64,000 nt of DNA, taken from assembly GCA_021234155.1 (NCBI GenBank), contig JAJEKV010000003.1:33031166-33095165 (forward strand), given 5' to 3'. The DNA comes from Isoetes taiwanensis. Lineage: Eukaryota; Streptophyta; Lycopodiopsida; Isoetales; Isoetaceae. The position numbers and the translations under genes were made by a program. This document shows, one piece after another, positions 9,258 through 63,968 of this stretch. Positions within the stretch are counted from its first letter, which is position 1, and every line of letters starts with the position of its first letter. The notes below the pieces were generated by a model. It was not told where the DNA came from. It ran no database searches and saw only the letters and a list, made by a program, of their open reading frames with translations.

Positions 9258-9261
9258 TGAT

Positions 9262-9286
9262 AAGTCGTATTTAATTAAAGTGGGAC
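9262..9286 (+). repeat. Left terminal inverted repeat, copy 1
   Basis: This is 25 bp, identical in inverted orientation to 29296-29320. A TGAT target duplication precedes it at 9258-9261. Confidence 0.95.
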
Positions 9287-9589
9287 TCATTCCATTCCCA
9301 TTTTTGGAACCCTTAATTTACATAAAAGGAGCACCCGACCGAAAACTATCCATTGTATTCGAATTTTTTGTCTAGAACTCGTGATCCAAGCTTTCCTCGA
9401 TTTTCCACGGTTAGCGGAGTCGAGAACAAGAAACAATGCAACCTGAAACAAAGGGAAATTCATTAAAGATTGAAACCAAAGATCTAGTTGAAAAAGAATT
9501 TTTTTAATAAATTGAATAGGTACAATGTATTTTTACATCGGACCATGAGACCATGGCGGTCTTGCTATCACTCAGATTACATCATCTTG

Positions 9590-10075
9590 GTAGGTGGTCC
9601 ACCTTAGGGGATTAACTACGCGCTTCTTCCGCCTACTTGTAGTTAAGCCTTGGGAGCAACCTCGAAGAGTGTGGAATGCCTCACGTGGAGGTGCCTCTGG
9701 AGCTACCCGGCCAATCACCCACCCGACTTCTCCCACTTTGGCCTCCGCGGCCTTTCATCGAATATGCTCCTTCCCAACCTCCATGGATGTTATGCAATGC
9801 TTTGCAAGATGCTTTGTGCTTCTGGGACCTCTCAAATTTCTTAGCGTGTTCTTTATCCCGGGGTGTGCATGGTATCTGAATTCACGAGCAAACCGCATCC
9901 CAAAGGCAAAGAGTGTAGCGTGACCGGATGCGCGCCGAAATCCATTTCTTCGCCTTTGAGCGGATCTCGTGTCGCTGGAGCGGTCTCTGGTGATGCCCTC
10001 GAAAGGGATGCGTGGTGCTCTGGATGCGGTACACGAACCACCTGGAGCAAGGAGAGTCTATGATTAGCAATTACG
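9590..10075 (-). other. Conserved left-arm segment, possible terminal exon
   Basis: The segment is conserved in the second copy at about 52030-52505. Minus-strand frames carry related peptides (for example ...HGGWEGAYSMKG in copy 2), but indels break them in both copies and no family is recognised. It could be the last exon of a minus-strand transposon gene or a long 3' UTR. Confidence 0.35.
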
Positions 10076-10109
10076 TTGCCATTAGTCAAAACGAAGAAAA
10101 AGAATGTTG

Positions 10110-10445
10110 AAATCAAATTACAATGGAGAACATTCATTCCATACAACCGTGATCCAATGACGTGGGGAAGTAGTGTGTTTCTCGACTCATGAGTGAGAAA
10201 GGACGGATAAGTCAAAGTACAACCATTCTCATTAGAATATGGTTGCATCCAATCACATACGGGAAGCATACAAATGGTTTTAGATCATTAATAAGGATTA
10301 ACCCAGTGCCTTTCGACTCGGAAATGAAAGGCCCAGAATGCAATGTACAACCATTATCATAGTAGATTGGGATCATCCAAATACACAATCAAACATGGTC
10401 TCATCATCAGATTTTCTCACGACTCGTAAGTCGAGAAAGCCGGTA
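10110..10445. repeat. Array of about 130-bp units, each with a CTCGACT/AGTCGAG palindrome (copy 1)
   Basis: Three units share 'tacaaccatt.tcat.a' and 'catacaaatggt'-like sequence. Each carries a degenerate palindrome, near 10178, 10310 and 10424 (for example 'cgactcgtaagtcgag'). The same three-unit array lies at about 52560-52900 in the other copy. The array borders the stop-codon side of the FCP1-domain gene. Confidence 0.7.
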
Positions 10446-10542
10446 AACTCAATATACAAGTATATTCATTACAAAATGTTTAATACATTTGTTCACGTTT
10501 CTTTACAATATTCACACAATTTGACTATCCGGAAAGCAGAGG

Positions 10543-13500
10543 TCACTCTTCTTGATCACCAAAATATTTTCCGTCCATAGCTTTCATGATCGCCTTGCTC
10601 TGGATCGGGTTCCGTGAGGCTCTCGGATAGTTCTAATCACATGGGGACAAGAATGGCAAGAGGGATTCTGCCAAGACGGGACAAAGTCCGGAAGGACAAC
10701 CACCTATCCGCCTCATACTCTTCAGGTCGATATGCCTTAGCAAGGATTGTATTTTTGCGAGTTATGATAGCACTTGTAGTGAGTCATCTATGATCGGGCC
10801 AGTGTTGTGTTTGCCATAGTCCGGGTTGCTCATAAACCCCATCCCTTTTCACCATAATAGGCTTCCCCTTTGTGATGGCTGGATCGAGGGTCCGAAAACA
10901 TGCTTTTCGACCCTTTCATTTCCCCAAAAGCATCCTTGAACTTCAAAGCTGGAAGGCCGAGAACACCAAGAACATTGACAATATTTTCTTTGCCATACAA
11001 GACCATATGCCCACTTCGAATCCGTTTCGGGCACCATTCAACAATTTCCTTTGCTCTAGGCCTCGGATACACTATTTTATGCTCCGCTTTGTTACCGGAT
11101 CTGCGAGGTGTTGAGCTCGGGGGCGTCTTTATCGTGGTATCGCAGCTAATACCCCATTGGCGTCAAATATTACAAGCTTGGCGAGGACCGGTGGATTCGA
11201 TTGGAGTTTAGCTCGATCATATTTCCGGTTCATCGGGATCCATATGCGGGATCATTATCTTTTGAGGTCCTTTACGGTGCGGCCGGTGTCTTGCTCTGGA
11301 TTATCCTTGGAGTGCATTGTCCTCCTCGCGGCGTGAACCGCTAGATATTGACAATGATCGAGTTTCATTGACATGGAACTCCACGAAATGATGACATCGT
11401 GGTGAAAGGAAGCGAGTTTTCTCCGCTACGCGGTCGAGAATAAAAAAAAAGTATTGAAAGGAAGCGAGTTTTTCTCGACTTCATGGTCGAAAACACCCGA
11501 TAAACAAAATAAACTCACCCTCAATCTCAGGGTTTTCAAGAATGTGTTCGGCGGCATTACGGTCTAAACCTTCGACATTATCGTCTCCGTGGCATTTTGT
11601 CTCCCTAAGCTCCCGAGGTTTGTCTTAATCTTAACCCGTCGTCTTTCTTTGCTTCCATTTGTCTTCCTCCCCTTGAAATGCTCTTGAAGCAGGATCCGGG
11701 TATGACCAATGGTTTCAACCATGTCCTTATTTCCAACCACGGATATAGGTTTCATTCCATAAAGCATAGCCCCCCCGAGAGAACATGCCATTCATGTACC
11801 ACTAGCGCCACAATTTGATCTTCCTCGACCAAGCTGGTTATGAAGTACTTGATAACTCTTGGCGGATAGGAATTCTATGTATAGGACCCGTCGCACCATC
11901 TTTGGCGACTTTATCCATGGATGGCACATCCTCCATAAATCTGCCTTCCTTCGGTTCCATTGCTCTTGAGAGATCATGAACCCTGTCGAGATAATGATGT
12001 TAAGCTAAACCACCACTTATCGGTCTATAGCCGATCTTGAAATCAAAACCAAAACTATATTGGCAAAAGCTTGGTGCCTTGGCAAGCCAAGTCTACACTC
12101 ATGTTCAAGTTAGGTATATGGAGTACATGATCTTGTTGGTGAAGTTAATATCATTTGCCCATTGGGAGAGCAGGTTTGTCTGATTGCCCAACATGCAAAA
12201 GACAAAGGAAACCTGAAATTATCCAGTCGGTCATGTCGGACCGTCTTGTACCTTTGCTCTATGTCGGCTTTGTCATAAAAGGGTGGGTCTTCGATCATAT
12301 TGATGGCAAATAGTGCCACGGGTCCAGGTGCCGTTCGGACCACCAAATCCCTTGTGCCCCAAAGTTACCCGAAATGGAGGGGGCTATCGCCGGCCTTAAA
12401 TGGGACCACCCCGAATCCAAGCTTCCTCTTGAAATTGTCATTGCACGTTCGGGGAAGGAAGGGTTTGGCGTTACGCTTTAGCTTGGTGTTGATGTAGGGT
12501 TGACATAGATGGTTCAATTCCTTCATGTCTTCCTCATCAAAGGGGCAGCCCTTTCCTTGTAATAATCAAATTCATGGTATTCATTAGATGCAGCGTTCTT
12601 TGAGAACTCCGTGATGCCTTCTTCTAGCATACTTATTTGTCTCTTGGATTGTGGCATAATCCTTTGTGTCCGCATTTTAGAACTCCCTAGTCTTCCTTAG
12701 CGGTTGTTCCATCCAAGGTCGCCTTGTAGGTCAAGCGTTTCTTTGTCGCCGTCAGTTACAGTATCCTTTTCATGAACACAGCTTGTCGAACAACTTGGGG
12801 TCCTACCTGCTTGGAAATTCTCCATTGTTGTCCTTGGCTTGCCTCTTGTCCATTGAGCCCATATCTCAGCGTCCATTTCTCTTAGGCCCCCGATTGCTAA
12901 GAATGAGGTCATATTGATGTGAGAGAGACTCCTTGCCCTTCCTTGGTGTTCTCTTCTTCTTCTCTCTTCATCATCTCCCTCATCATCTTCCTGGCCCCTC
13001 CAGCCAGAACATATCTGCGGAGTTTCTCAAAGGTCTTCCACTTGTCCAGGGAGCCTGTTTCCTTTAGGGCCGAGGAGGACAACCCAATGCTTTCCACTAT
13101 TGCGGCGTGTGTAGCAGTCTGATCGGGGATGATAGGCTGCATTCGATCAATGTCCCAATGTCGAGGAGCATGAAAGTATCTACAAACACCCAAGGTAAAC
13201 ACTAAATAGTAGCTTTGATAAAGAAAATTAGACATTCAAGGACTTTCTCGGCAAAGTCCTTGAATGTCTAATTTCTTTTTACTGGGGCGGCTTTGACTCG
13301 CCGAAGCCGAGAAAGCTCTGCATCCCTTGATTTTTACGTGTTCCTCGCTTTCTGGGCTACGCCAAATCGAGAAACCCCGATGATAATCGAAAATGTTAGG
13401 ATGGTAGAGGGCTTTCTCGAAATCGGCGAGGAAATGAATCGAGAGTTATTCACCTTCGTAGGGCGGCGGCTTTCGCTGCTATTGTGTTACAGCGTTGGCT

Positions 13501-14267
13501 AATCTTTGGCCGGTTAGGTTGCTTTGGCGTCTCCAGCTGAAGAACTTCTGCACTCTTTGGCAGCGTATCTATCCTTGATCCTTTGTGGCTCCTTCTCCGG
13601 TTTCGCAATACTTGCGCCCGCCCTCGACGGAATGCTGACCGTCTACTACCCGCAACCGACGCGTCTTTTTCCCTTCAGATCGCCCTCGGACTTCAGGTTG
13701 AACAACCCCGGCCGGGTCGATCTGCTGGCATGACATCCAGTGCATTGGATCCTGGGGATAGGATGCACCATCGGGGTTCATAATCTCCGCCATGTATGCT
13801 GGATTAAATTCCACCGTGTTTTGAACAAGGCGGCATCTCCCGTGCGGACCTTGAGGCGTCGATGTCAAGAGCAGACTTGTGTGCTATTCCCAACGGATAT
13901 CTTGAGCCAACCAGCTCCATTTTTGTGCCCCCTCTGTGAAATCCACGATCTGGTCATCTTGATCCATTAGTTGGGAGTCGACCATATCTTAAATGCCTTC
14001 ATCATCACGATTCCTCCCGTGTGGTGTCATCTTCTCCATCTTTGGTCTTGTCCGGACTTTTTTCTGTATGAACCACAACTTCCCTCCCCGCTGCGAGGAG
14101 AGTCTTGGCTGGTAAGTGAAGCTCCCCGTATTGAACAGTTTTTCCCTGACTCTAGAAATCTCCATTCCAAGCTCCCTAGATGTTAGGGTTCCGGCCTCCT
14201 TCATCCCTTCCAGATCCTTCCACCCAAGGTTCTGACAATTTAAAGGCGACGGCTTCGCCTTGCTCAT
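10543..14267 (-). CDS. FCP1/HAD-phosphatase-domain transposon gene, tandem unit 1
   Basis: The reading runs from the MSKAK start (CAT at 14265-14267) to a TGA at 10543-10545, after a C-terminus ending KAIMKAMDGKYFGDQEE. The N-terminal half contains SNLGWKDLEGMKEAG-type, LFKHVEFNP and KWKTFEKL segments of unknown family. The middle has HEFDYYKEKAALDEEDMKEL and LGHKGFGG segments. The C-terminal domain has FDANGVL (about 11150), YPRPRAKEIVEWC and IDDS, the FCP1/NIF-type HAD motifs. Introns hold palindromes; one carries the 50-nt perfect hairpin 13225-13274. Many frame breaks coincide with CAG/CTG sites. This unit lacks the upstream exon found beyond unit 3, so its own expression is doubtful. Confidence 0.6.
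13225..13274. repeat. 50-nt near-perfect hairpin within an intron of unit 1
   Basis: Arms of 22 nt (starting AAATTAGACATTC) flank a 6-nt loop. Equivalent, slightly decayed hairpins lie near 17088-17142 and 20945-20998. In copy 2 the two arms are separated (near 55660 and 55850). Confidence 0.85.
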
Positions 14268-14422
14268 GGTCTCATCAACAGGACAAGCATGCCTTTCTCG
14301 ACTCGTAAGTCGAGAAAGCCAGCGAAAACTCAATATACAAGTATATTCATTACAAAATGTTTAATACATTTGTTCACGTTTCTTTACAATATTCACACAA
14401 TTTGACTATCTGAAAGCAGAGG

Positions 14423-17400
14423 TCACTCTTCTTGATCACCAAAATATTTTCCTCATCCATAGCTTTCATGATGGCCTTGCTCTGGATCGGGTTCCATTCG
14501 AGGGCTCGGATAGTTCCTAATCACATCGGCTTACAAGAATGGCAAAGAGGGATTACGCCAAGACAGACAAAGTCCTAAGGACAACCACCTATCCGCCTCA
14601 TACTCTTGGTCGATATGCCTTAGCAAGGATTGTATTTTGCGAAGTTATGATAGCACTTGTAGGCGGAGTCATCTATGATCAGCGCAGTTGTGTTTGCCAT
14701 AGTCCTGAATTGCTCATAAACCCCTCGCCCAGCCTTTTTCACCATAATAGGCTTCCCTTTGTGATGGGCGGATCGGGAGGTCCCACACATGCTCGACCCT
14801 TTCATTTCCCCAAACGAACTTGAACTTCAAAAACCGGAAGGCCGAAACACCAAGAACATTGACAATATTTTTCTTTGCCATACAAGACCATATGCCCACT
14901 TCATCCCCCGTTTCAGGCACCATTCAACAATTTCCTTTGCTCTAGGCCTCGGATACACTATTTTATGCTCCGTTTTAGTCGATCTGCGAGGTGTTAAGCT
15001 CGGGGACGTCTTTATCGTGGTATCTTTGCCTAATACCCCATTGACGCCAAATATTACAAGTTTGGCAGGACCAGCTGGATTCCAGCTTGGAGTTTGGCTC
15101 GATCATATTTCGGTTCATCGGGATCCATATCTTTTGGGATCATTATCTTTTGGTCCTTTTCGGCCGCGGAGTCTTGCTCTCGATTATCCTTGAGAGTGCA
15201 TTGTCCTCCTCGCGGCGTGAACCGCCGCTAGATATTGACAATGATCCGAAGTCGTTGACATGGAACTCCCCGAAATGATGACATCGCGAGAAAAGGAACG
15301 AGTTTTTCGACTCGCGAAGTCGAATAAAAAAAAAAGTATTGAAAGGAAGTTTTTCTCGACTCGCGAAGTCGAAAACACCGATAGAGCAAAGTAAACTCAC
15401 CTCAATCTCGGTTTTTTCAAGAATGTGTTCGACAAAGATTCGGTCTAAACCTTCGACATTATCGCCTCCGCCGCTTTGTCTCCCTCGCTCCCGGGTTTGT
15501 CTTCGTCTTAAATGCCTTTATTGCTTCCATTTGTCTTCCTCCTTGAAATGCTCTTGAAGCGCATCCGTGTATGACCAATGGTTTCAACCATGTCCTTATT
15601 TCCAACCACGGATATAGGTTTCATTCCATAAAGCATAGCCCCCGAGAGAACATGCCATTCATGTACCACTCGCATACAATTTGATCTTCCTCGACCAAGC
15701 TACTTGATAACTCTTGGCCGGGATAGGAATTCTATGTATAGGACACCGCACCATCTTTGCTGACTTTGTCCATCGATGGCACATCCTCCATAAATCTGCC
15801 GCCCTTCCGGGGTTCCATCTGCTCTTGAGAGATCATGAACCCAGCCGAGATAATGATGTTACGCTAAACCACCACTTATCCGTGTCTATAGCCGATCTTG
15901 AAATCAAAACCAAAACTATATTGGCAAAGCTTGGTGCCTTCGGTAAGCCAAGTCTACACTCATGTTCAAGTTCGTATATATGGAGTACATGATCTTGTTG
16001 GTGAAGTTAATATCAGTTTGCCCATTGGGAGACAAAGGCGGTTGTCCGATTGTCCGGCATGCAAAAGACAAAGGAAACCGAAAGTATCCGTCGGTCATGT
16101 CCGCAACGCCTTGTACCAATCGCTCTATGTCAGCTTTGTCATAAAAAAAAGGTGGGGTCTTCGATTATATTGATGGCAAATAGTGCCACGGGTCCAGTGC
16201 GGTTCCGGCACCACCAAATCCCTTGTGCCCCAAAGTTACCAGAAATGGAGGGGGCTATCATCGGCCTTAAATGGGACCACCCGCGAATCCAAGCTTCCTC
16301 TTGAATTGTCATTGCAACGCTCGTTGGAAGGGAAGGGTTTTGACGCCACGCTTTAGCTTGGTGTTGATGTAGGGTTGACATAGGCGGTTCAATTCCTTCA
16401 TGTCTTCCTCATCAAGGGCAGCCTTTTCCTTGTAATAATCAAATTCATGGTATTCATTAGATGCAGCGTTGCGAGAACTCCGTGATGCCTTCTTCTACGC
16501 GAGACTGTGTCTCTTGATCGTGGCATAATCCTTTGTGTCACCGCATTTTAGAACTCCTAGTCTTCCTTAGCGGGATTGTTCCATCCAAGATTACTCGCCT
16601 TGTAGGTCAAAGCGTTTCTTTGTCCGTGTCCCCGGGCCTTTTCATGAACGCTTGTCGAACAACTTGGGGTCCGCCTGCTTGGAAATTCTCCATTGTTGTC
16701 CTTCAAATTGCCTCTTGTCCATTGAGCCCATATCTTCGGTCCATTTCTCCCCACCGCCTCGGTGCTAAGAATGAGGCTCATATTAGTGCGAGAGAGACTC
16801 CTTGCCCTTCCTTGGTGTTCTCTTCTTCTTCTCCTCTTCATCCTCTCCTCATCATCTTCACGGCCCTCCTCCAGAACATATCTGCAGAGTTTCTCAAAGG
16901 TCTTCCACTTATCCGAGGGAGCCTCGTTTCCTTTAGGACGCCGAGGACAACCCAATGCTTTCCACTATTGCCGGCGCGTATGGATCCCGTTTAGGATATT
17001 TGGCTGCATTCTGTCCAATGTCCCAATGTCGAGCATGAAAGTATCTACAAACACCCAAGGTAAACACTAAATAGTAGCCCAGTAAAAGAAAATTAGACAT
17101 TCAAAGGACTTTCTCGGCAAAGCCCTTGAATGTCTAATTTTCTTTACTGGCTTCGACTTCTTGAAGCCGAGAAAGCTCTCGCGATCCTTTGATTTTTCTG
17201 TTCCCGGCTTTCGACTGCAAGTCGAGAAACCCCAAAGATAATAACGGGAAATGTTAGGATGGTAGGCTTTCTCGACTTCGCCGAGTCGAAATGGAAAGAA
17301 TCAGAGAGTTATTTATTTTTACGTAGGCCGGCACTTTCATTTGCTATTGTGTTACGGCGTGGCTAATCTTGGCGGATTCGGTTCTTTAGTCTCGGCTGAA

Positions 17401-18122
17401 GAACTCTTGCACTCTCGCTTGGCATATCTATCCTTGATCCTTTATGGCACCTCCTTCTCCTCGTCTGCAATACTTGCGCGCCCTCACTAAATCTTGGCCG
17501 TCTACTACCCGAGCCGGGCGTCTTTTCCTTGGTCGTCCTCGGACTTCGGCTGAACAACTGACCGGCCGATCTGCTGAAAGGTATGACATCCGCTGCATTG
17601 GATCCCGCCAAGCGAGGATGTCGCACCATCAGGTTCATAATCTCCGACATGTGTCTTTGGATTAAATTCTCGTGTTTGAACAAAGGCGGCATCTCCCCGT
17701 GCGGACCTTGAAAGTCGATGTCCAAGGCGGCTTGTGTGCTATTCCCAACGGATATCTTGAGCCCGGCCGGCTCCATTTTACGTGCCCTCTCGTGAAATCC
17801 TGATGGGTCATCTTGATCCATTGGTTGGGAGTCGACCATATCTTCGTGCCTTCATCATCGATTCCTCCCATGTGGTGTCATTTTCTCCATCTTTGGTCTT
17901 GTCCGGGACTTTTTCTCAGATGAACCACAACTTCCCTCCCCCCTGCTTGAGAGTCTTCAAAGACCAGATAGAAGTGAAGCTCCCGTATTGAGCAGTTTTT
18001 CCACGACTCTAGAAATCTCCATTCCAAGCTCCCTAGATGTTAGGGTTCGGCCTCCTTCATCCCTTCCATCCTTCCACCCAAGGTTACGACAATTTAAAAG
18101 CGGCGGCTTAAGCCTTGCTCAT
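14423..18122 (-). CDS. FCP1/HAD-phosphatase-domain transposon gene, tandem unit 2
   Basis: The layout matches unit 1: start CAT at 18120-18122 at the unit boundary, stop TGA at 14423-14425. HAD motif I reads FGVNGVL here (about 15035-15060), without the nucleophilic aspartate that the other units keep. The affected codon (GGC for GAC) sits beside a C-rich site and may be a reading error. IIDDSAYK near 14670 and KPIMVKK near 14740 are visible. Introns near 15300-15375 hold two CGACT...AGTCG palindromes. It lacks the 5' exon of the parental gene. Function beyond the phosphatase-like fold is unknown. Confidence 0.55.
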
Positions 18123-18277
18123 GGTCTCATCAACGGGGACAAGCATGCCTTTCTCGACTCGTAAGTTCAGAAAAGCCCCCAAAACTCAATATACAAGTAT
18201 ATTCATTACAAAATGTTTAATACATTTGTTCACGTTTCTTTACAATATTCACACAATTTGACTATCACAGCGAGAGG

Positions 18278-21200
18278 TCACTCTTCTTGATCACCAAAAT
18301 ATTTTCCGTCCATAGCTTTCATGATCGCCTTGCTCTGGGATCGGGTTCCGTGAGGCTCGGATAGTTCCTAATCACATCGGGACAAGAATGGCAAAGAGGA
18401 TTACGCCAAGACAGGACAAAGTCCGAAGGACAACCACCTATCCGTCTCATACTCTTGGTCGATATGCCTTAGCAAAGGATTGTATTTTTCGCGAGTTATG
18501 ATAGCACTTGTATGGCGAGTCATCTATGATCAGCGTGTTGTGTTTGCCATAGTCCGGAATTGCTCATAAACCCTCGGCCCGGCCTTTTTCACCATAATAG
18601 GCTTCCCCTTTGTGATGGCTGGATCGAGGTCCGACACATGCTCGACCCTTTCATTTCCCCAAACGAACTTGAACTTCAAAACTGGAAGGCCGAGAACACC
18701 AAGAACATTGACAATATTTTTCTTTGCCATACAAGACCATATGCCCACTTCGAATCCCCGTTTCAGGCACCATTCAACAATTTCCTTTGCTCTAGGCCTC
18801 GGATACACTATTTTATGCTCCGTTTTCGTCGGGATCTGCGAGGTGTTAAGCTCGGGGACGTCTTTATCGTGGTATACTGCAGCTAATACCCCATTGACGT
18901 CAAATATTACAAGCTTGGCGGGACCAGCTGGATTCCAGTTGGAGTTTGGCTCTGATCATATTTCCGGTTCATCGGGATCCATATGCGGGATCATTATCTT
19001 TTCAGGTCCTTTCTGGCTGTGAGCAGTGTCTTGCTCTGGATTATCCTTGGAGAGTGCATTGTCCTCCTCGCGACGTGAACCGCCGCTAGATATTGACAAT
19101 GATCCGGAGTCGTTGACATGGAACTCCCTGAAATGATGACATCTGTGAGAAAGGAAACGAGTTTTCTCGACTCGCGAGTCGAGAATAAAAAGAAAAAGTA
19201 TTGAAAGGAAACGAGTTTTCTCGACTCGCGAGTCGAGAAACACCGATAGAGCAAAGTAAACTCACCTCAATCTCAGGTTTTCAAGAATGTGTTCGGCAGC
19301 ATTCTGGTCTAAACCTTCGACATTATCGTCTCCGTCAGCTTTGTCTCCCTCGCTCCCAGGTTTGTCTTCGTCTTCGTCGTCTTTACTGCTTCCATTTGTC
19401 TTCCTCCCCTTGAAATGCTCTTGAAGCAGATCCAGGTATGACCGAATGGTTTCAACCATGTCCTTATTTCCAACCACGGATATAGGTTTCATTCCATAAA
19501 GCATAGCCCCCTGAGAGAACATGCCATTCATGTACCACTCGCATACAATTTGATCTTCCTCGACCAAGCTACTTGATAACTCTTGGCCGGATAGGAATTC
19601 TATGTATAGGACCTGTCGCACCATCTTTGCTGACTTTGTCCATCGATGGCACATCCTCCATAAATCTGCCGCCCTTCCAGGGTTCCATCTGCTCTTGAGA
19701 GATCATGAACCTGTCGAGATAATGATGTTCGCTAAACCACCACTTATCCAGGTCTATAGCCGATCTTGAAATCAAAACCAAAACTATATTGGCAAAGCTT
19801 GGTGCCTTCGGCAAGCCAAGTCTACACTCATGTTCAAGTTCGTATATGGAGTACATGATCTTGTTGGTGAAGTTAATATCAGCTGCCCATTGGGAGACAG
19901 CAGTTGTCTGATTGCCCGGCATGCAAAAGACAAAGGCGAAAGTATCGAGGTCGGTCATGTCGGACACGTCTTGTACCAATTGCTCTATGTCAGCTTTGTC
20001 ATAAAAAGGGTGGGGTCTTCGATTATATTGATGGCAAATAGTGCCACGGGTCAGTGCAGCCTCGGACCACCAAATCCCTTGTGCCCCAAAGTTACCAGAA
20101 ATGGAGGGGGGCTATCATCGGCCTTAAATGGGACCACCACGAATCCAAGCTTCCTCTTCAGAATTGTCATTGCACGTTCAGGGAAGGGAAGGGTTTTGAC
20201 GTTACGCTTTAGCTTGGTGTTGATGTAGGGTTGACATAGATGGTTCAATTCCTTCATGTCTTCCTCATCAAGGGCAGCCTTTTCCTTGTAATAATCAAAT
20301 TCATGGTATTCATTAGATGCAACGTTCTTGAGAACTCCGTGATGCCTTCTTCTAACGCCGCGCTGTCTCTTTAGGATCGCGGGCATAATCCTTTGTGTCC
20401 TGCATTTTAGAACTCCTAGTCTTCCTTAGCAGGATTGTTCCATCCAAGATTCTGCCTTGTAGGTCAAGCGTTTCTTTGTCCGTCAGGCCCTGTATCCTTT
20501 TCATGAACTGCTTGTCGAACAACTTGGGGTCCGGCCTGCTTGGAAATTCTCCATTGCTGTCCTTCAGCTTGCCTCTTGTCCATTGAGCCCATATCTCAGT
20601 CCATTTCTCCCAGGCCCTTTCGGTGCTAAGAATGAGCTCATATTGGTCCGAGAGAGACTCCTTGCCCTTCCTTGGTGTTCTCTTCTTCTTCTCCCTCTTC
20701 ATCCTCTCCCTCATCATCTTTCTGGCCCTCAACCGAGAACATATCTGCGAGTTTCTCAAAGGTCTTCCCACTTATCAGGAGGAGCCACTGTTTCCTTTAG
20801 GGCGAGGACAACCCAATGCTTTCCACTATTGCCGGCGTGTATGATCGGGTTTAGGATGCAGCTGCATTCATCAATGTCCCAATGTCGGGCATGAAAGTAT
20901 CTACAAACACCCAAGGTAAACACTAAATAGTAGCCCCGAGTAAAGAAAATTAGACATTCAAGGGACTTTTTCTGGGCTTCGCCCTTGAATGTCTAATAAT
21001 TTTTGCTATGAGATTTCTTTCGACTTCGAAGTCGAGAAAGCTCGCATCCTTTGATTTTTCGTGTTCCCCGGCTTTCTCGACTTTGCGGAATCGAGAAACC
21101 CGATGATAATCGAAATGTTAGGATGGTAGGGCTTTTCACAGCTGGAGAATGGAAATAAATCGAGAGAGTTATTTACCTTCACGTAAAATTTGGCACCGCT

Positions 21201-21973
21201 GCTATTGTGTTACAGCGGTGGCTATCTTGCGGCTTTGATTCGGTTCGCTGGCGTCTCATTGAAGAACTTCTGCACTCTTTACAGGCATATCTATCCTTGA
21301 TCGCTGCGGCACCTCCTTCTCCGTCATAATACTTGCGCCCTCACACTAAATCTTGACCGCCTACTACCCAACCGGACGTCTTTTTTCCCTTCAGATTTCC
21401 TCGGACTTCCAGTTTGAACAACCGCCGGCCGATCGTCTGAAAGGTATGACATCCGCAGGCATTGGATCCGCAGCGGGATGTCGCACCATCGGGTTCATAA
21501 TCTCCGGCATGTGTTTTGGATTAAATTCCACGTGTTTGAACAAGGCGGCATCTCGATGCGGACCTTGGTCGATGTCCAAGAGCGACTTGTGTGCTATTCC
21601 CCAACGGATATCTTGAGCCAGCCGCTCCATTTTACTCAGCCCCTCTGCAGCGAAATCGTCGGTCATCTTGATCCATTAGTTGGGAGTCGACCATATCTTC
21701 GCAGCTTCATCATCCCCCATTCCTCCGGTGTGTGTCATCTTCTCCATCTTTGGTCTTGTCCGGACTTTTTAGATGAACCACAACTTCCTCCCCCCGGGCG
21801 AGAGTCTTTCAAAGACAAGAGAAGTGAAGCTCCCGTATTGAGCAGTTTTTCCCTCGACTCTAGAAATCTCCATTCCAAGCTCCCCTCGATGTTAGGGTTC
21901 CGGCCTCCTTCATCCCTTCGAGATCCTTCCACCCAAGGTTCGACAATTTAAAGCGCCCGGCCGCCTTGCTCAT
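18278..21973 (-). CDS. FCP1/HAD-phosphatase-domain transposon gene, tandem unit 3 (best preserved)
   Basis: This is the most readable unit. From the 5' side it shows SNLGWKDLEGMKEAG, HKSLLDIDQG and LFKHVEFNPKHMPEIMN. Then come LFDKQFMKRIQGLTDKETLDL, HEFDYYKEKAALDEEDMKEL, ADINFTNKIMYSIYELEHE and LVEEDQIVCEWYMNGM. An acidic linker (DDEDEDKPGSEGD) precedes an intron at about 19121-19266 with GT-AG ends and two full palindromes. The C-terminal FCP1-like domain has FDVNGVL (18886-18906), YPRPRAKEIVEWC, KGKPIMVKK (about 18590-18617) and LIIDDSPYK (18511-18533). Motif I keeps the nucleophile Asp but has Asn for the second Asp, as in some plant FCP1-like proteins. It is probably a nuclear phosphatase-like or phosphopeptide-binding protein; the substrate is unknown. 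It is the only unit in copy 1 next to the upstream exon at 22023-22421. Confidence 0.68.
19121..19266 (-). promoter_or_regulatory. Intron of unit 3 carrying two CTCGACTCGCGAGTCGAG palindromes
   Basis: On the minus strand the intron starts GTGAGTTTAC and ends in ...TTTCAG before GGAGTTCC. Two complete palindromes lie near 19213 and 19164. The corresponding introns of units 1 and 2 and of copy 2 (about 53830-53955) also carry paired palindromes. No function is known; a binding site for an element-encoded protein or a hairpin in the pre-mRNA is possible. Confidence 0.55.
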
Positions 21974-21975
21974 GG

Positions 21976-22430
21976 AAGAGTGAGAATAATTTGAAACCCG
22001 ATAATTTTTGGTGTGATAGAACTTACTCTTAAAGCGGGTCTTAGACATGTAGTGTTAGATGCTTGAATCACCTTTGAGATGGAGAGCACAACACCGATTT
22101 TCTTGTACTTGTCTCGGAGCTCTTCTTGTCCCTTTGGTGGAGAAATAGATCTTTCTCCTTCCCACTTGTTGATACCTCGACATACCACCAAGAATCTGCT
22201 GGTGTGTTAAGAAGCTCATCTCCAGTCCCTCGATGGCGAAGAATGGAGTTCGGCCGATGATCACTAGTGAGTCCGCGGTGAATCTTTGCAAGGCGAAAGG
22301 ATGGATCGGTTAAGGTATTCCGACCAAAGAAAAACGTCGAGCTCACGAGGAGCTCGTTTTTTTCTTCTTTGCCGCAGAACCGGCATCCCCTCCGGCCTTG
22401 CTTCTTGGGCCCGGTCGCCATGTCTCCGTA
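21976..22430 (-). CDS. Upstream exon region of the FCP1-domain gene (copy 1)
   Basis: A minus-strand frame begins MATGPKKQGRRGC at 22421 and runs with frame uncertainty to about 22029. There the sequence ACCCGCTTTAAGA|GTAAGT gives a donor. The same donor context (CTGCGGAAAGA|GTAAGT) occurs in copy 2. A likely acceptor lies at the MSKAK site ('gagcaag|G'). If so, MSKAK is inside or next to the splice site and the true start is upstream. The peptide is not recognised. This exon is single-copy, outside the tandem units. Confidence 0.45.
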
Positions 22431-22820
22431 TGCCCCCTCATCTTCTTCTGCTTTCGAACCCTTACGTAAATTAAGTTTCCTCCGCCAGCATTGTAAGTTT
22501 TAGGACTGCATGTAAAAAATCGATTGTGTTCTTTAATTTGAATTTAAGGACATGCAATCATTTAAGAAAAAAAAAGGGCTAAGGGTGCAACCGACGGTCG
22601 CCTTTAGCCCATGAAACACTATTTCGAAATTGAATCACATCAAAGGGACTTAGTGGCGGAGTGTAGTTTATCTTCAACTGCGGCATTGGCGACTTTGAGT
22701 TGGGAGGCGAGCATCGACCGTAGACTTCGGAATGGCGCCGACGATGTAAGCTCCTCCACAGCGCCTTGCTCGTGTTTTTTTCTGACCGCGTCTTATTGCA
22801 AAAGCGGTTGATTTGATCGA
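22431..22820. promoter_or_regulatory. Spacer between divergent exons, putative bidirectional promoter
   Basis: The minus-strand gene starts to the left and a plus-strand exon to the right. The spacer contains 'gctaagggtgcaaccgacgg' facing 'cgcctttagccc', an inverted pair also kept in copy 2 (near 57412-57440). No TATA box can be assigned with confidence. Confidence 0.3.
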
Positions 22821-23035
22821 TGAGCACGGAGCTAAGGTAGGAAGCGGAGAGAGGAGCCGGAACCACGGGAACTCTACATTTCGCTAACGCCATGGAATCG
22901 GGGGATACGAGAATCGCAGTGATACAAGTATTAGATGCGAATGCACTCTTGATGAGACCGACAGAAGAAGCAAAGACTCTCGGTGAGGCTGCGGGATCCG
23001 TGATACAGTGGCCCAAGGAATTACTGCGTGAAGAG
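22821..23035 (+). CDS. Plus-strand exon with an 'IQWPK' motif (copy 1)
   Basis: The frame reads MESGDTRIAVIQVLDANALL... then LGEAAGSVIQWPKELLREE and ends at a clear donor (GAG|GTGAGT at 23036). The same exon and donor occur in copy 2, ending at 57875. The 'LGEAxGxxxQWP' pattern recalls plant transposon-linked domains such as DUF8039; this is recollection of a motif, not a search. It may be a 5' exon of the transposase or a separate small gene. Confidence 0.4.
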
Positions 23036-23269
23036 GTGAGTTTCAGAGATGCCTGTGTGTTATTTCGCGTGTAGAATATGCCGTCTGTGTTTAGATAATA
23101 GAATTGCTCATAAGCTCGAGGGATTTATCGTTTCCTTGTCCAGCATTTTTCAGCTTCGAGAGATGATTTACTCTCTGGGTTGAGAGATGCTCGGCAAGGA
23201 AACGATGGATCGGGGGTAATGAACAGTTCCATTTTAGGTGTATTTTTACTTGGAATGTTTTCTTGGAAT

Positions 23270-24900
23270 GTTGTACATAGATCAGGCTAGGTCTAAGGCC
23301 CAGGAGATGCGGCTCAAATGCATCCTCTTGTGGTTAGTCGGAGGGGCCTCCACCCAGTCGGAACCACTCCTCTTCGCAATATTCGAGGAAGATGGTTCGA
23401 AGGAGAGTGGCTCAGACATGCTAGAGGCACTTGGGACTAAAAACAGGAGAATACAAAGTGCTAGTTGTAGAGACCTGTGCTAAGACCCAAAGGCCTGCAG
23501 ACAGTCAGGGCCACTTCCCTTCGCAAAATTCGAGCAATATAGTTTGAAGGAGAGTGGCATAGACTGTCTGCAGGCACCTTGGCTTCCTCTCTGTGGTTTC
23601 CCTGTGGTTAGTTGTAGAGGCCTCCACCCAGTCCGAGCCCCTCCCCTTCGCAATATTCGACGAAGATGGTTCGAAGGAGAGTGGCTCGACTTGGTCGAGG
23701 GCCATTTGCTACATACGGGGAGAATTGGTTGCTAAGGGATTCTCGACTTGCGAGTCGAAACCGAGTGTTGGCCTTTCTGTTTGCATTCTCACTTCGGCAA
23801 GTCGGTGAATCGTTAGCCATCGAGACTCCATATGGTACACAGAGTGCTGGCTGGTTAAGGCACTCCCGGCTTCGCGGTCGAGAATGCGAACATCAAACTA
23901 CGTGGTTTCCCTGTGGTTAGTTGTAGAGGCCTCCACCCAAGCCCTCCCCCCCTTTATATTAGGCGAGGATGGTTGAAGGAGGAGGCTGCGGCGGGTAGAG
24001 GCCCGCTGGCCTTACCGCGAGGAGAATTGGCTGGCTAAAGGATTCTCCGACTTGCGCAGTCGAGAATCGCGGTGTTAACTTCACGTCTACATTCTCGACT
24101 TCGCAGAGTCGAGAATGCCTGCTCGTGAAGAACTCGGATGAAATGCGCATGGAGTGCGGGCTGGGTAAAAGGCATTCAGGCTTCCTTGGCCATATGTCTT
24201 GAACATCAAACTGTGGTTTCCGTGGTTAGTTGTAGAAGCCTCCACCCGGTCAGGCCCATCCCTTCGCAATATTAGAAGATGGTTGAAGGAGGCGGTCCCT
24301 GGCGGGGGGAGCCCATGCGACCCACCGCCAGGAGAATTGGAGTTGCTAAGAGTTGGCTGCTTGAGCGGTCAAAACCACTTCCCTTCGCAATATCCGAGGA
24401 AGATAGTTTGAAGGAGAGTGGTTAAGACCGTCTCGCAGGCCAACTCTAGAATGCACTAGAGCTTCGTTTTCCGACTCACGAAGTAGAAAGGAGCCAACAC
24501 CTCGTGGTTGTCGCTTGAGGCCTCCACCCGGTTGGGCAGGTCCTCTTCGCAATATTCGGCGAGGATGGTTCGGCGGAGAGTAGCTTCGGACTGGGTGGAG
24601 GCACCTCTGGCTGCGCACAAAGGGTCATTGGCGGGGTATGACATTCTCGACTCACGAAGTCGAGAAGGTCTGCAGCGAGCTTAAAAAGAATGTGAAGACG
24701 TTGGGTAGCTGTGTGCAATCTCGAATCATCATCGAGAATCCCCCAACCAGCCAGCGGTCCGAGTGTGTACACTCCCTCTCGCCTCGCGGTCGAGAAATTC
24801 TTGACTTCGCGAAATGAGAAGAAGGCCTGCAGACTTCTGGATTGTTGGCAAGCCGAGGTATTCTCAACTTCGCCACTCCCTTCTCGCATCTCTCTGCGGT
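23270..24900. repeat. Degenerate tandem repeat array with palindromes, right arm (copy 1)
   Basis: A module 'cttcgcaatattcgaggaag' (with 'ggagagtggct') recurs near 23369, 23518, 23648, 24262, 24382 and 24547. It alternates with 'gagaattgg.tggctaa' and CGACTT...AGTCGAGAATG palindromes (near 23737, 23865, 24045, 24092, 24645, 24780). The spacing is irregular at about 120-310 bp. No protein is supported; the many short frames are by-products of the repeat. The counterpart in copy 2 is at about 58140-59640. Confidence 0.65.
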
Positions 24901-25240
24901 GGAGGATATCTTTGTGAGTTAGAATTGCGGTTACGTGAAGCAATTCCTATTCTTAGTTCATAGTGAGAAAAAAACATTCCTAGTTATGTTCTGTTATGAA
25001 ACACTCTTAGACAGTTTAGCTATATCTTTTGTGAATCATTCCTAGTAATGTTCTGTTAATGCTCTGCAATATCTTACTTCCTAACACCTGTCTCTGATGA
25101 TTTCTATCTCGGTTGCTTGCTACTACTCTTACCACTATTCTCACTTGTGCCCGTACAATGTATTCAATTCAACAACAACCAAGAAAAAGATAACAAAAAC
25201 AGAAAACAATACAAAAGGAGAACAGATAACAGAGAGATTA

Positions 25241-25320
25241 ATGAGATTAATGAGAAAACAGAGAACAGTGGAGACAAATGAGATTAATGAGAAAACAGAG
25301 AACAGTAGAGACAAATGAGA
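25241..25320. repeat. Two tandem copies of a 36-bp unit
   Basis: The unit 'gagattaatgagaaaacaga' plus 'gaacagt.gagacaaat' repeats twice in a purine-rich stretch. The same stretch in copy 2 (59895-59945) is shorter. Confidence 0.7.
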
Positions 25321-25344
25321 TTAAAAAAGGGTATGATATTACAA

Positions 25345-25850
25345 AAACATACCTGGAAGATTTGCTGGATGAGGAGGAAGCTCCCGTGTTCAATTGCATG
25401 TGGGTACAAAGCGCCGCGCAAGCGTGAATAAGGATTTGTCGGGCCGAAATTGTATCGCAATAATAAGAACCTCTAACAACGTAATATAAGTAAAAATACA
25501 AGAAAAGACTTACGAAAACTAAAAAGCATCAAGAAAAAGGCCTAAAACTTAGAGAGAGAAGCCTCACTTTCTTCTCCGCAGAACGCGCCCACTCGAACAC
25601 TCAATCTCACCGGCGAAAACTTCTGGCGCTGGGAAGTCCCCCGATCCGTCACCAAGTCCAACCATAAGATGGCCTTTGAATGGCTCGGTTCGCTCTCTAT
25701 GCCCGACGCGGAAAACCGGGCGCTTTAAGGAAGGGAGAGCCAAGACCGATCGGAGAAAAACAGGGAGGAAGAATGGTCGAGGGGGAGAGGAAGAGGGTGC
25801 AGTTAATCCTGGCTGCACCCTCGAACCTCGTAAAAGTGCAATAATAAATA
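25345..25850 (-). other. Conserved minus-strand exon and start region, right arm (copy 1)
   Basis: A minus-strand exon of about 120 bp ends at a GTATGT donor (near 25352). Its copy-2 counterpart (60015-60135) also ends before GTATG and shares a PDKSLF/PPHP-like peptide in one frame. Upstream, 25560-25830 is a C/T-rich 5'-UTR-like segment. The CACGTG G-box at about 25933 lies just beyond it. It could be the 5' end of a long minus-strand transcript. Confidence 0.35.
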
Positions 25851-25954
25851 TCTGTCACGTGTGGGCCATGCCCTACATGACGTGGCAGTGCGGGTTGCTG
25901 ACATGGCCACGCTATCAGCCTCTCAGGAGGCGCCACGTGGCCATGACAAGATAT

Positions 25955-26190
25955 TAAAGGTTATGTTATATGTTTATATATGTTATGTTATGTTATATAT
26001 TTAATATGGTTTCAATGGTTAAATAGTTTCAATGGTTATATATGGTTTATATATGTTATGTTAGGTTATATATTTAATATGGTTTCAATGGTTAAATAGT
26101 TTCAATGGTTATATATGGTTTTAATGTGTGGTTTATATGGTCATATTTGTGGTCTTTGGGGCTATATGGTTTTAATGTGTGCTTTTTCAT
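25955..26190. repeat. AT-rich low-complexity repeats before the transposase
   Basis: Imperfect repeats of 'ggtttcaatggtta' and 'gttatatatttaatatggtt' include a near-duplicate block of about 75 bp. The counterpart at 60590-60835 has a different number of repeats. The region ends in a TTTTTCATTCAG acceptor-like site, so it is likely intronic. Confidence 0.6.
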
Positions 26191-26194
26191 TCAG

Positions 26195-29124
26195 GGAGCA
26201 TGTGAGATGAGTAAAATGGAGCCAAGGAAGTCCAGCACAGGCCATTGCCCTAGGCTCCAATGGAGGAAGGTGGGTTGCTTGTTGTTGCACCCTTGCAACC
26301 AGACGGTATTTGCAGAGGGCATAATAACTGCAGTTGATCCTTTTGATAGTGTGAATGATGAAAGGCTGGGAGATGAACATCTTGGAGTTGGCATTGTGAA
26401 GCTTCTTATCGAAGTTGATACAATCATGTCCCAGGGAAGCTCTAGTGATTGCATTGTGTGCTCTGGGCTGCTGGAGTCCCAAGCTCAGTTGAGATGGCCA
26501 ATTAGATATATTACACACAAGAATGGTGATAGTCTAGAATGCCCTACTGAACTACATACCCCAAGGCCCACCCAAGGCCATGTGGAAGATTTGGTGGTCG
26601 ATGAGCATCCTTTGATCACAAGGAAGAGACGCTATGTTTTTCATAGAAGGCAGCCAAGGGTGCCCAAGAGGCCTAGAAGTGACAAATATTTAGAAAGGAT
26701 GGAAAGTATGGCACCAACCAGAGAAAATCTAGAGGCAATTAGGGGACAAGAGTGTTGCAACCTAGATTGCAGTCAAAGCGATACAATGTGGATGACCTCG
26801 TGCAGATAAGGTCCCAATACATTGGACAGCTTCAAAAAGATAGGATTAATTTCATTTACTCCTTGTGTAGGAATTCCAGCTATGATGAAAACACAGGAAG
26901 TCTACTATATCAATTGAGGGGCATGAAGGTATGTATGAGAGCATTGAGATGGATTCTTGGGGTGAGCAAGTCTTCATTTTACGAGATCTTTGGGAGCGTG
27001 GTTAGAAAAGGGCACGTTTGTTCCAACATGGTAATGCACTCACTTTGAAACCTAGAGCAAATACTCTCAAGGCCATTGCGGTCTTGAGCTTTGTGAGATA
27101 CATGTCTCAATCTATGCCCCACAAGTCGAGGTGAGAGCGAGCTTGCACGGTGTGCGAGTGGTGCAAAGAGTGTTGCCACAACACTACATCCAAAAGGAGT
27201 GCCTTAAAGAGGTCAACTCCATCCTGGAAACTACTGAAGGTAGGCCTCTTTCTCAATCACATTTCAGCAAGTTATGGAGCACTCACTTCTCGGGGCGTGA
27301 GTGTCCTACAACACATGCCATTCTCAAAGTGCAACACTTGCATTCAACTCAAGGATACACTTGCATCAACTGCAATAGAGAAAGAAACAATGGCAATTAG
27401 GGAGCAATTTGCAGATCACCAAAGGGACCAAATATCATGTAGAGCGGTTGTATTGGCGGTGGAAAACATTTTTCGAGATGCAGGTAGGACAAATTTTTGT
27501 GTATAATTCATGATAAGATGGACCAACACAAGACTTTCTGGCCAAAGCTAGATCCTTTACCCAAGCGTTGTCAAAACGTTTTTCGGATGAAAGTAAGCTT
27601 TGGCGGGTGTATTAACACATGGTCATGGAACCGGAACATATGGTCATTTTGTGCTTGATCTATGGAGGGATGATCCAAACTTCCATGTGAGCTCTATTTT
27701 CAAGTGCTTGAGAACACTAGAGAAAGGATCGATAGAAGGGAGGAGGTATTCCCCTTGACACCCATTTTTGAGGCTTTGATGGATGATCAACCGCTTTGTT
27801 ACCAAAGGCGGATAAAAAGCTCACATCCAAGGTGTCTAGTGAATCAAGGAGGACTTGGGATGATTTCCCCTTACTTGAAAAGCACTGCTTGAGGAGCTAT
27901 GTGTTCGGTTGGACAACTCACTGAAAGAAAACAAGAATAGATGGATGTTTGGGGCAATGTCATACTTGTGAGCGAAAGTGGGAGTATTCAAAGTTGTGAA
28001 AGTGGGATTCATGATGGTTGGGCATACGATGATGATATAGATGGATTCTTTGGAACTTTCTCCACCAAGCTCAAGAGAGAAAAACGTGATCACTCTCCCT
28101 CTGAACTAATGGATGTGTTTGAGAGCTGCATTGACCCCAACCCAATGGCTTTCTTGATGGATGAGGTTGCAGATTGGAAGTCATTTGTAGAGGATACTTG
28201 CTAGATGGTAAGGACCGGTTAATGACAGACACACAAAGCCACTTCAGTTCAAGTTTTGGGTTAGGGATGGAATACCAATCATGCAATATAAGTGGAGACC
28301 GGGTGACAAGTTGTGAATGCCCTGTACAAGGTATCGAAGTTGTGGCAAAGGGTGCCGTTGGTGAAGTTCTCATTCCTAAAGGGCAGCCAAAACCACTACC
28401 TCCCTTCAAGACTATCAAAGACTCTAGCCAACTAGTGAAGGGCATCAAGGATTACATAACGCACTGGGATGATGTTCGAAATGGAAAGCACACCTTCACT
28501 CTTAAGAAAAATCAAATGGACTCCCTAATCAAGTACTGGGAGAAAGTTGTGACATGCTTAGAAACTGAACAACCATGTGGGAGGGAGCTAAGAGACGGGT
28601 TCTTGCCAGAGTCAAGATGGGAGGGTTCTCAAGGTGCAAGCACGTCTAAGAATGCTCACTTGGGTACTAACAAGGGTTCCAAGTGGTTTGTGGGAAGTAA
28701 GGCCTCAAAGCCGAAGTGGTTTGATCTTCCTGAGTGGGATCCCTTTGAGGACATCAAGGAAGGATACTTTGTGCTAGTAAGGCCTGATGATGAGGACTGT
28801 CCAATATGGTTAGGGGTGGCACTCTCTGATGTAACCACCACTTATGGCTGATGGAGAGAGTTGCGTCCTGGATTCCAAATTCAATATTGGGAGCCCATTG
28901 GGAGACACAAGAAGGGCAACTTGAAGGAGCAATACACTGACTGCTGGGAGAAGAAGTGGAGGGCAAATTATGCTGATCCTCAAAGGAGGGAATTGGTGGA
29001 GTGTGTGGTATGGTCATATCCAAGTTCTCACATTGCAAAGGACAACACACACAAGATCCCAAAAAGGGAGATGGACAAAGCCATGAGCAACCTCCATGCT
29101 TTATCATTGTATGAGGGTACATAA
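26195..29124 (+). CDS. DDE-type transposase of the giant element, DUF7869-like (copy 1)
   Basis: The exon opens after an acceptor at 26193-26194 (first ATG 26207) and ends TAA at 29122-29124. In order: an N-terminal segment (MSKMEPRKSS...), a CCNLDC cluster (about 26755), GVSKSSFYEI, and QSHFSKLW with FSKCNTCIQLKD, a probable zinc site. The candidate catalytic motifs of an RNase-H-like fold follow: DKMDQHKT (27512-27535), LDN...KENKNRW (about 27908-27943) and GWAYDDDIDGFF (about 28018-28050). FGLGMEYQS-type sequence comes next, then a C-terminal EGYFVLVRPDDED...WEPIGRHKKGN module that resembles an SH3/BAH-like reader. Stops and shifts (for example after 26800 and near 27100) lie at CAG/CTG sites and differ from copy 2, so the real frame is probably open. 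The assignment rests on family motifs I recall. Confidence 0.72.
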
Positions 29125-29295
29125 TATTGAGAAGTTTGAAAACTTTCTCAACTAGTGGTTTGTAAAATTTATGAGGAAAACAAGTAACCCAATTCTTTGT
29201 GTGTCATGTGTAATTCTATTCAAGCAATCACTTCAGAAATTTTTTTTATGGTGCGTGAGTCCCATTTTCAGTCCGAATCCCAAAATTCAAGATTT

Positions 29296-29320
29296 GTCCC
29301 ACTTTAATTAAATACGACTT
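29296..29320 (-). repeat. Right terminal inverted repeat, copy 1
   Basis: This is the exact inverse of 9262-9286, followed by TGAT at 29321-29324. Just inside lies a second 'gggactc' pair (inverted, near 29269) that echoes the subterminal sequence of the left end. Confidence 0.95.
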
Positions 29321-29324
29321 TGAT

Positions 29325-51595: not shown

Positions 51596-51693
51596 AGGGC
51601 AAAGTCCTCAGGGATTCGGTCCAGGAGTGTCAACCCGACCTCCGCTGGCGAGTCGTGAGGTTTTTCTCCTCCTAATCAAGCCCAGAGGGACTT

Positions 51694-51718
51694 AAGTCGT
51701 ATTTAATTAAAGTGGGAC
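51694..51718 (+). repeat. Left terminal inverted repeat, copy 2
   Basis: Identical to 9262-9286, preceded by the target duplication ACTT. Confidence 0.95.
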
Positions 51719-52029
51719 TCATTCCATTCCCTTTTTTTTTCGGAACCCGGTTAATTTACATAAAAAGTAGCACCCCGACCCGAAAACTATCCTTAATTCG
51801 AATTTTTGAATAAAACTCTGAATCCGAGCTTTGCTGCAGTTTTCCCTGGTTCGCGAGTCGAGAACAAAAACAATGCAACTGAAACAAAGGAAATTCATTA
51901 AAGTTTGAAACCAAAGATCTAGTTGAAAAAGAATTTTTATTAATAAATTAAAATAGATACAATGTATTTTACATCTGGACACGTAGACCATGGCGGTCTT
52001 GTTTGCCACTACACATTACATCATCTTGG

Positions 52030-52505
52030 TAGGTGGTCCACCTTAGGGGATTAACTTGTGGCGCTTCTTCATGCCGTCTCGTAGCCTTGGGGCAACCTCG
52101 GCGAGGTGGAATGCCTCACGTGGAGGTGCCTCTGGAGCTACCGGCCCTCGGGTCCACCCGGACTTCTCCACTCGCCTCCGTAGCCTTTCATCGAATATGC
52201 TCCTTCCCACCCTCCGTGGATGTTATGCAATGCTTGCAAGATGCTTTGAGCTTGCTGGACTTTCTCTTTGTTCTTCGGGCCGTTCTTTATCCCTGTGGTG
52301 TAGCGAAAGCAACCTCTCAATTCGCGAAAGCAACCTTGTCCCAAAGGCCGCAAGAGTGTAGCGTGAATCTGGGATGTGCGAAGCGGTATTTCTTCCGCCT
52401 TGAGCGGGATCCGTGCCCGCTGGAGCGTCTCTCGTGATGCCCGAGTGGGATGCACAGGGTGGTGTCGGATCTGGTTCAACCACTCCGGAGCAAGGAGAGT
52501 ATGAT
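52030..52505 (-). other. Conserved left-arm segment (copy 2)
   Basis: Counterpart of 9590-10075. The minus-strand frame 52138-52530 is the longest here and includes SILQALHNIHGGWEGAYSMK. No family is recognised. Confidence 0.35.
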
Positions 52506-52559
52506 TAACAATTACGGTGCCATTAGTCAAAAAGAAGAAAAGAACGTTGAAATCAAATT

Positions 52560-52900
52560 ACAATGGAGAACATTCATTCCATACAACCGCATCCAATGAC
52601 GTGGGAAGTAGTGTCTTTCTCGACTCGCGAAATGAAAGGCCCATAAAAGTGAAAGTACAACCATTCTCATTAGAATATATGGTTGCATCCAATCACACAC
52701 CTAAGCATACAAATGGTTCGTCACCGAGATAATTGAAGATGCCTTTCTCGACTCGCGAGTCGAAAGGCCTAGGGAAACGCAATGTACAAGCATTATCATA
52801 ATAGATCATGCCTCGCATTCAGTCACACAATGAAACATACAAATGGTCTCATCAACAGATAAGCATGCCTTTCGACTCGTGAGTCGAGAAAGGCATCTAA
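52560..52900. repeat. Palindrome array, left arm (copy 2)
   Basis: Three units of about 130 bp carry palindromes near 52616 (decayed), 52744 (CTCGACTCGCGAGTCG) and 52871. It matches 10110-10445. Confidence 0.75.
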
Positions 52901-52996
52901 ACTCAATATACAAGTATATTCATTACAAAATGTTCAATACATGTGTTCACGCTCGCTTTACAATATTCACACAATTTGACTATCCCAAAGCAGGGG

Positions 52997-56863: not shown

Positions 56864-56865
56864 GG

Positions 56866-63964: not shown

Positions 63965-63968
63965 ACTT

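Follow-up and report, generated by a model that had tools for sequence, protein, structure and literature searches.

Two large DNA transposons with identical ends lie in a 64,000-bp stretch of the Isoetes taiwanensis genome (assembly GCA_021234155.1, contig JAJEKV010000003.1, positions 33,031,166 to 33,095,165; hereafter the window, numbered from its first base). Their unequal sizes, about 20 and 12 kb, and their broken reading frames raise the question of which form is native to the family and whether these copies are as decayed as they seem. Our data showed that the family is real and well delimited and that A owes its 20-kb size to a local triplication of one gene. The two elements, copies A and B, are very probably members of a 12.2-kb cut-and-paste family with a Sola-like mechanism, the accessory-gene unit of A having been triplicated recently and many of the frameshifts being consensus errors at methylated sites. 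The boundaries below were obtained by direct reading, combined for the whole elements and their terminal inverted repeats (TIRs) with a TIR search.

9258..29324, plus strand: copy A with its duplications, a 20,059-bp element with TGAT on each side
9258..9261, no strand: target duplication TGAT, left of A
9262..9286, plus strand: 25-bp TIR, left end of A
29296..29320, minus strand: 25-bp TIR, right end of A
29321..29324, no strand: target duplication TGAT, right of A
51690..63968, plus strand: copy B with its duplications, a 12,271-bp element with ACTT on each side
51690..51693, no strand: target duplication ACTT, left of B
51694..51718, plus strand: 25-bp TIR, left end of B
63940..63964, minus strand: 25-bp TIR, right end of B
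63965..63968, no strand: target duplication ACTT, right of B

Complete DNA transposons with identical 25-bp TIRs and clean TGAT and ACTT duplications had been described here in an earlier reading made without database searches (the sequence-only reading), and direct reading of A and B bore this out. In the window, the 25-mer had four matches at up to 3 mismatches, all of them exact, against 0 in 100 shuffles. The genome-wide check of ends, lengths and duplications proposed in the same reading was carried out on the whole assembly (1,658,258,908 bases on 1110 contigs, as for all whole-assembly searches below) and recovered 1661 forward and 1709 reverse TIRs at up to 2 mismatches, the reversed control giving 0. 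Duplications were tabulated for 32 TIR pairs, namely A, B and 30 pairs taken from the first 100 listed places in contig order, a non-random sample; 12 short and four long copies among these 30 were read whole and 14 by their ends. An exact 4-bp duplication flanked 29 of the 32 pairs, L051 having one of 5 bp and L041 and C10 none, while mismatched combinations of left and right flanks agreed over 4 bp in 7 of 992 cases (0.7%), which is chance level. Pairs C128a and C128b have identical flanks and are non-independent, and pair L046 lies inside a run of A bases. The two former pairs (C128:91575-106371 and C128:130592-141805), with the same flanks on one contig, are a segmental or assembly duplication. 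The 4-bp duplications showed a loose AT lean, 86 of the 116 duplicated bases being A or T compared with 60.5% in the window flanks.

Loci chosen by transposase similarity were also considered: the TIR (up to 5 substitutions) was present in the flank of 25 of 30 and was not found in the examined flank of L016, L019, L024, L031 and L034. Because of the exact duplications, their chance level and these 25 loci, both the element ends and the 4-bp rule can be taken as firm in most copies. The sequence-only reading had also raised the matter of copies ending elsewhere; the duplications abutted the TIRs in the 29 pairs, which had been picked by their TIRs with the ends assumed, and the loci picked by transposase agreed in 25 cases and left five without a TIR.

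By length, the 30 genomic pairs fell into 12 of 11.0-12.7 kb, 12 of 3.5-5.8 kb, two of 14.6-14.8 kb and four of 23.5-26.7 kb, the standard element being about 12.2 kb. The lower bound of the 12-20 kb size given earlier corresponds to the standard form, and its upper bound only to A with two extra 3.86-kb units; a natural state of 20 kb with cargo is not supported. Among the 12 short copies, 11 lacked the transposase and had in common with B only a stretch of 43-104 bp at one terminus and one of 168-247 bp at the opposite terminus. The remaining one, L050 (5.1 kb), is an internally deleted copy in which the transposase region was kept. Apart from L050, the short copies (L039-L049, 3.5-5.8 kb) combined TIRs with palindrome arrays as in the long copies, and L044 had a long pyrimidine-rich tract close to one end. 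The longest TIR pairs (C22, C112, C113 and C148, 23.5-26.7 kb) had clean 4-bp duplications and are probably nested insertions. They were also considered as further tandem amplifications, and this was not supported, since an exact probe from the accessory gene described below matched once in each of the four, a search that diverged copies would escape.

The extra length of A was located by pairwise alignment, in which the following units were delimited.

10413..14293, minus strand: accessory-gene unit, tandem copy 1 of A
14294..18149, minus strand: accessory-gene unit, tandem copy 2 of A
18150..21975, minus strand: accessory-gene unit, tandem copy 3 of A
52843..56958, minus strand: accessory-gene unit of B, single

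Copy A is 20.1 kb long because this 3.86-kb unit is present three times in tandem. At clean sites, defined as those clear of gaps and of CG/CHG contexts, divergence was 0.66-0.95% among the units of A and 3.7-4.1% between these units and B, so the triplication is recent and occurred within the lineage of A. An assembly artefact would be an alternative in a noisy nanopore assembly, all the more as no two accessory probes lay closer than 5 kb among the 100 exact matches listed elsewhere in the genome, out of 805 matches. At clean sites the three units nevertheless differ from one another, and they resemble each other more closely than they resemble B or four other copies, which makes an artefact quite improbable. 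The triplication looks untypical for the family.

In place of the multi-gene cargo proposed in the sequence-only reading, one accessory gene was found as far as readable, with three copies in A. It lies on the strand opposite to the transposase, and its parts in unit 3 were the following.

18533..18955, minus strand: FCP1/NIF-phosphatase-like C-terminal part (PF03031), open over 141 codons
19265..20771, minus strand: upstream coding blocks of the accessory gene, frame-shifted, perhaps with introns

The open part in A matched PF03031 below the cut-off (E=0.001), and a protein merged by hand exceeded the curated cut-off (E=9.2e-6). Active FCP1-type enzymes have an aspartate two residues after the nucleophile; phosphatase activity is uncertain here because an asparagine (N) stands two residues after the putative nucleophile. 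The merged protein had no relative among 5.8 billion proteins, and no report of an FCP1-like accessory gene in such elements was found among the literature matches listed. A majority consensus of seven accessory units kept shifted frames, and for this reason no gene model is claimed. Hand-pooled counts against B, L055, L057 and L051 gave ratios of nonsynonymous to synonymous differences (pN/pS) of about 0.5, 0.3 and 0.35 for three blocks; a fourth block, which is acidic and of doubtful framing, gave about 2.

In the whole assembly, a 30-base probe from the accessory gene had 390+415 matches, the control giving 0. Among the 18 listed TIR pairs of at least 10 kb, 13 contained the exact probe, its distance to one end being 3.18-3.29 kb in 12 of these; one (C118, locus L057) had it within 3 mismatches, and the exact probe was not found in C10, C22b (L053), C128a and C128b. 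Given this fixed position, the accessory gene belongs to the standard equipment of the family and is not random cargo. Plant genes often contain FCP1-like domains, and a host gene captured at random, as in Pack-MULE elements, could have provided one; as the position is identical in 12 of the 18 long pairs listed and the assembly has 805 matches, such a capture seems very improbable.

The transposase itself was defined in both copies of the window.

26216..29114, plus strand: transposase gene of A, no intron seen, frame-shifted in the assembly
60872..63758, plus strand: transposase gene of B, no intron seen, frame-shifted in the assembly
62245..62685, plus strand: open stretch of the B transposase, part of the DUF7869 core (PF25273, E=1.5e-6)

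Both are broken in all frames, and near-open frames occur elsewhere in the genome, the cleanest copy examined (L010) having a single TGA in 956 codons. A Pfam search with L010 gave DUF7869 (PF25273, E=1.3e-43) and HTH_7 below the cut-off. Three database proteins, all DUF7869, were recovered with L010 at 31% identity. A search with a four-sequence alignment gave 0 matches and missed its own three member proteins too; no relatives were found in viral contigs and species genomes, and nothing usable among PDB sequences. Six sequences were aligned, namely L010, L087 and L088 from this genome and the three database proteins, the other five being 30-36% identical to L010. Invariant in all six were D430-x-M432-D433, QLD564N, N570-K571 and GHTHD603-x-ID606 (L010 numbering), with D, D and D motifs among them. 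The DUF7869 transposase announced in the sequence-only reading is supported, its DDE/D type being putative. Compared with other high-scoring copies, which had been selected by score, L010 gave pN/pS values of 0.21-0.43 in nine of nine comparisons, a sign of purifying selection on the transposase. AlphaFold models were poor, with a predicted local distance difference test (pLDDT) of 34 for the full protein and 40 for the catalytic region. In the latter, low-confidence model, the first two D motifs fell where strands 1 and 4 end and the third in the helix that follows strand 5, an order that fits an RNase H fold and can be taken only as a hint; Foldseek gave no match in the PDB at E<=0.001.

The broken frames of A and B can be read as base-calling errors or as decay. 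Base calling with nanopore R9.4.1 chemistry errs at 5-methylcytosine in CHG context. The assembly was made from R9.4.1 reads with miniasm, racon and pilon, according to an excerpt of its description (PMC8566536). Pairwise alignments of the copies consisted of long identical runs interrupted by messy spots. Scored against the frame of L010, 28 of 36 indels in A (6.9 expected) and 48 of 90 in B (17.6 expected) lay within 1 base of a CG/CHG cytosine. The excess was also found in L051, L053, L055, L057 and L013, with 0 of 1000 simulations reaching it in each copy, A and B included, and was not found in the clean copies L009, L011 and L012, the division into noisy and clean copies being our own. 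Mismatches in the seven noisy copies amounted to 10-18% at CHG and 2.5-3.6% at CHH, and in the three clean ones to 4.3-9.6% at CHG, 2.2-5.6% at CHH and 5.8-15.4% at CG. Because the indels cluster at CG/CHG cytosines, as nanopore errors at methylated sites would, part of the apparent decay of A and B is probably a sequencing artefact. Since CG mismatches are raised in the clean copies too, some substitutions probably reflect true deamination. Ranking among the copies with the best scores, the clean ones do not prove that the frameshifts are errors.

Alternatively, the frameshifts could be genuine mutations and A and B dead relics. This would agree with frames broken throughout, with raised CG and CHG mismatches, and with the indels away from CG/CHG cytosines (42 of 90 in B; 8 of 36 in A). 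Deamination, on the other hand, yields substitutions and not short indels, and the indel excess was seen in seven of seven noisy copies and absent from the three clean ones tested. Moreover, the accessory units of A and B and of four further long copies, with 190-309 gaps over all aligned sites, differed by 0.4-5.4% at clean sites compared with 4.1-9.5% at all sites. We therefore regard dead relics as unlikely.

Short and long copies also shared an internal motif array. The half-site AGTCGAGAA was counted 86 times in five long copies (60.9 kb) and 90 times in 11 short copies (45.6 kb), with 0 occurrences in 31.6 kb of window flank. Half-sites in the window lay inside A or B in 44 of 45 cases, the remaining one being at 7359, and a motif search delimited one cluster in B.

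55632..55901, no strand: clustered half-sites of the CpG-rich palindrome in B

With a slightly looser half-site, 248 were counted in 17 copies, of which 134 formed inverted-repeat pairs, the spacer being 4 or 5 bases long in 53 of 67 pairs and most commonly CGCG or CGCGA. All 11 short copies had a cluster at about 0.55-1.3 kb, eight of them with more half-sites at 2.9-3.5 kb, and most 12-kb copies had clusters near 0.9-1.2, 2.1-2.2, 3.9-4.3 and 6.7-7.7 kb, less regularly so in L051 and L053. Genome-wide, the exact 18-base palindrome was found at 3851 places (control 0), some of them outside TIR pairs. Because these palindromes are common to copies that share little else, they suggest a cis function. 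The element terminus AAGTCG (9262-9267) resembles the half-site, which may be chance.

As to classification, the excerpts available describe Sola elements as having DDD transposases, 4-bp duplications, TIRs of 11-1124 bp and lengths mostly of 2-9 kb, some above 15 kb (PMC10741241), and as known from Physcomitrella (PMC10741241, PMC9033089). Giant Sola elements above 15 kb have already been published (PMC10741241, PMC12477816), among them Sola1-1_Ec32 of Ectocarpus, a 21.5-kb Sola1 element with an opposite-strand ParB-methyltransferase gene (PMC12477816). Sola2 elements with Fanzor1 in Dictyostelium and Polysphondylium have 4-bp AT-rich duplications and TIRs of 12-21 bp (PMC3627910). The Sola-like duplication length noted in the sequence-only reading held, and, judged on duplication length, putative DDD residues and size, our family resembles giant Sola elements in mechanism, a likeness by description and not by sequence. 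With Sola in general it would share the 4-bp duplication and the putative DDD transposase, and with the Ectocarpus element a length above 10 kb and an opposite-strand accessory gene; compared by description, it differs in the FCP1-like product instead of ParB and methyltransferase, in the lycophyte host and in the palindrome arrays. With Sola2 it would share AT-leaning 4-bp duplications, short TIRs and an extra gene, which is Fanzor1 there and FCP1-like here, the TIRs being 25 bp long in our family.

Other known superfamilies were rejected. En/Spm (CACTA) elements are likewise large plant elements with a second gene and internal motif arrays, the sites of TNPA; they have CACTA ends and 3-bp duplications, in contrast to the AAGTCG ends and 4-bp duplications found here. 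The KDZ transposase domain has a Pfam model and the Ginger integrase core is Pfam rve. The comparison with described families proposed in the sequence-only reading left KDZ and Ginger unmatched, only DUF7869 and the sub-cut-off HTH_7 being found. The TTAA duplication of piggyBac and Kolobok was seen in 0 of 29 four-base duplications.

Membership of the Sola superfamily, probably Sola1 with the Physcomitrella group and the 21.5-kb Ectocarpus elements, is the placement towards which we lean, with some reserve. The 4-bp duplications, the DDD-type invariant residues in six sequences, the 25-bp TIR and the lengths of 12.3 and 20.1 kb, inside the Sola ranges excerpted from PMC10741241, and the opposite-strand gene of the giant Ectocarpus Sola1 all point to it; the likeness is nonetheless one of description, and the excerpted ParB-methyltransferase gene of Ectocarpus differs from the FCP1-like gene. 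The DUF7869 elements could instead form a superfamily of their own, outside the named ones, with coincidental 4-bp duplications. PF25273 had 9902 first-look candidates in the genome, 150 of 150 scored being above the cut-off, and no match in 14 control genomes. By sequence, the genome also has at least one further diverged DUF7869 lineage, represented by the two stretches examined, L087 (1-2501) and L088 (1-1501), both with open frames. These share the catalytic motifs and sequence beyond the core with the family transposase; they are 54% identical to each other over 405 residues, and in the catalytic region their identity to L010 is only 32% and 30%, respectively. The name DUF7869 was not found in the literature searched, nor was this family described in the parts of it that were accessible. 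The absence of a Pfam name from papers nevertheless says little, and duplication length and DDD residues are common to Sola, so that a separate superfamily appears rather doubtful.

Host-type genes lie beside and between the copies, namely a protein kinase (4381-5202, plus strand), a chalcone synthase fragment (32866-33492, plus strand) and a ubiquitin-conjugating enzyme (39014-39478, minus strand).

Taken as a 12.2-kb cut-and-paste family, these elements would be moved by a DDD enzyme with an RNase H fold, which would make its cuts at the TIRs and integrate the element with a stagger of 4 bp, and which may also mobilize the copies of about 4 kb in trans. The palindromes may be binding sites for the transposase or for the accessory protein. 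Copy A would have reached 20 kb through recent tandem triplication of the accessory-gene unit, and a large share of the frameshifts in A and B may be consensus errors at methylated CG and CHG cytosines, which would persist in repeats beyond the reach of short-read polishing and give the indel pattern. Several observations weigh against this account: duplications were absent from two of 32 pairs, the raised CG mismatches of clean copies are what true deamination would give, many indels lie away from CG/CHG cytosines, and none of the eight accessory units examined showed an intact frame. Likewise, selection by score accounts for part of the cleanness seen in the clean transposase copies, the scarcity of relatives is weakened by an alignment search that missed its own members, and the structure models were poor and had no PDB match. 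In a bolder and improbable scenario, DUF7869 transposons would form a separate superfamily, hugely expanded in Isoetes, and the present family would have a regulatory system of its own, countering host silencing through an FCP1-like accessory protein that acts on arrays of methylatable CpG-rich palindromes, with the gene dose raised by internal amplification as in A.

The cut-and-paste family is retained as the preferred reading. The results also carry a warning, in that errors at methylated sites in nanopore plant assemblies may make young transposons seem dead and let their genes escape annotation. They document in a lycophyte an abundant family of giant cut-and-paste elements with a fixed accessory gene and shared cis palindromes, of which copy A offers a case of gene amplification inside a transposon.

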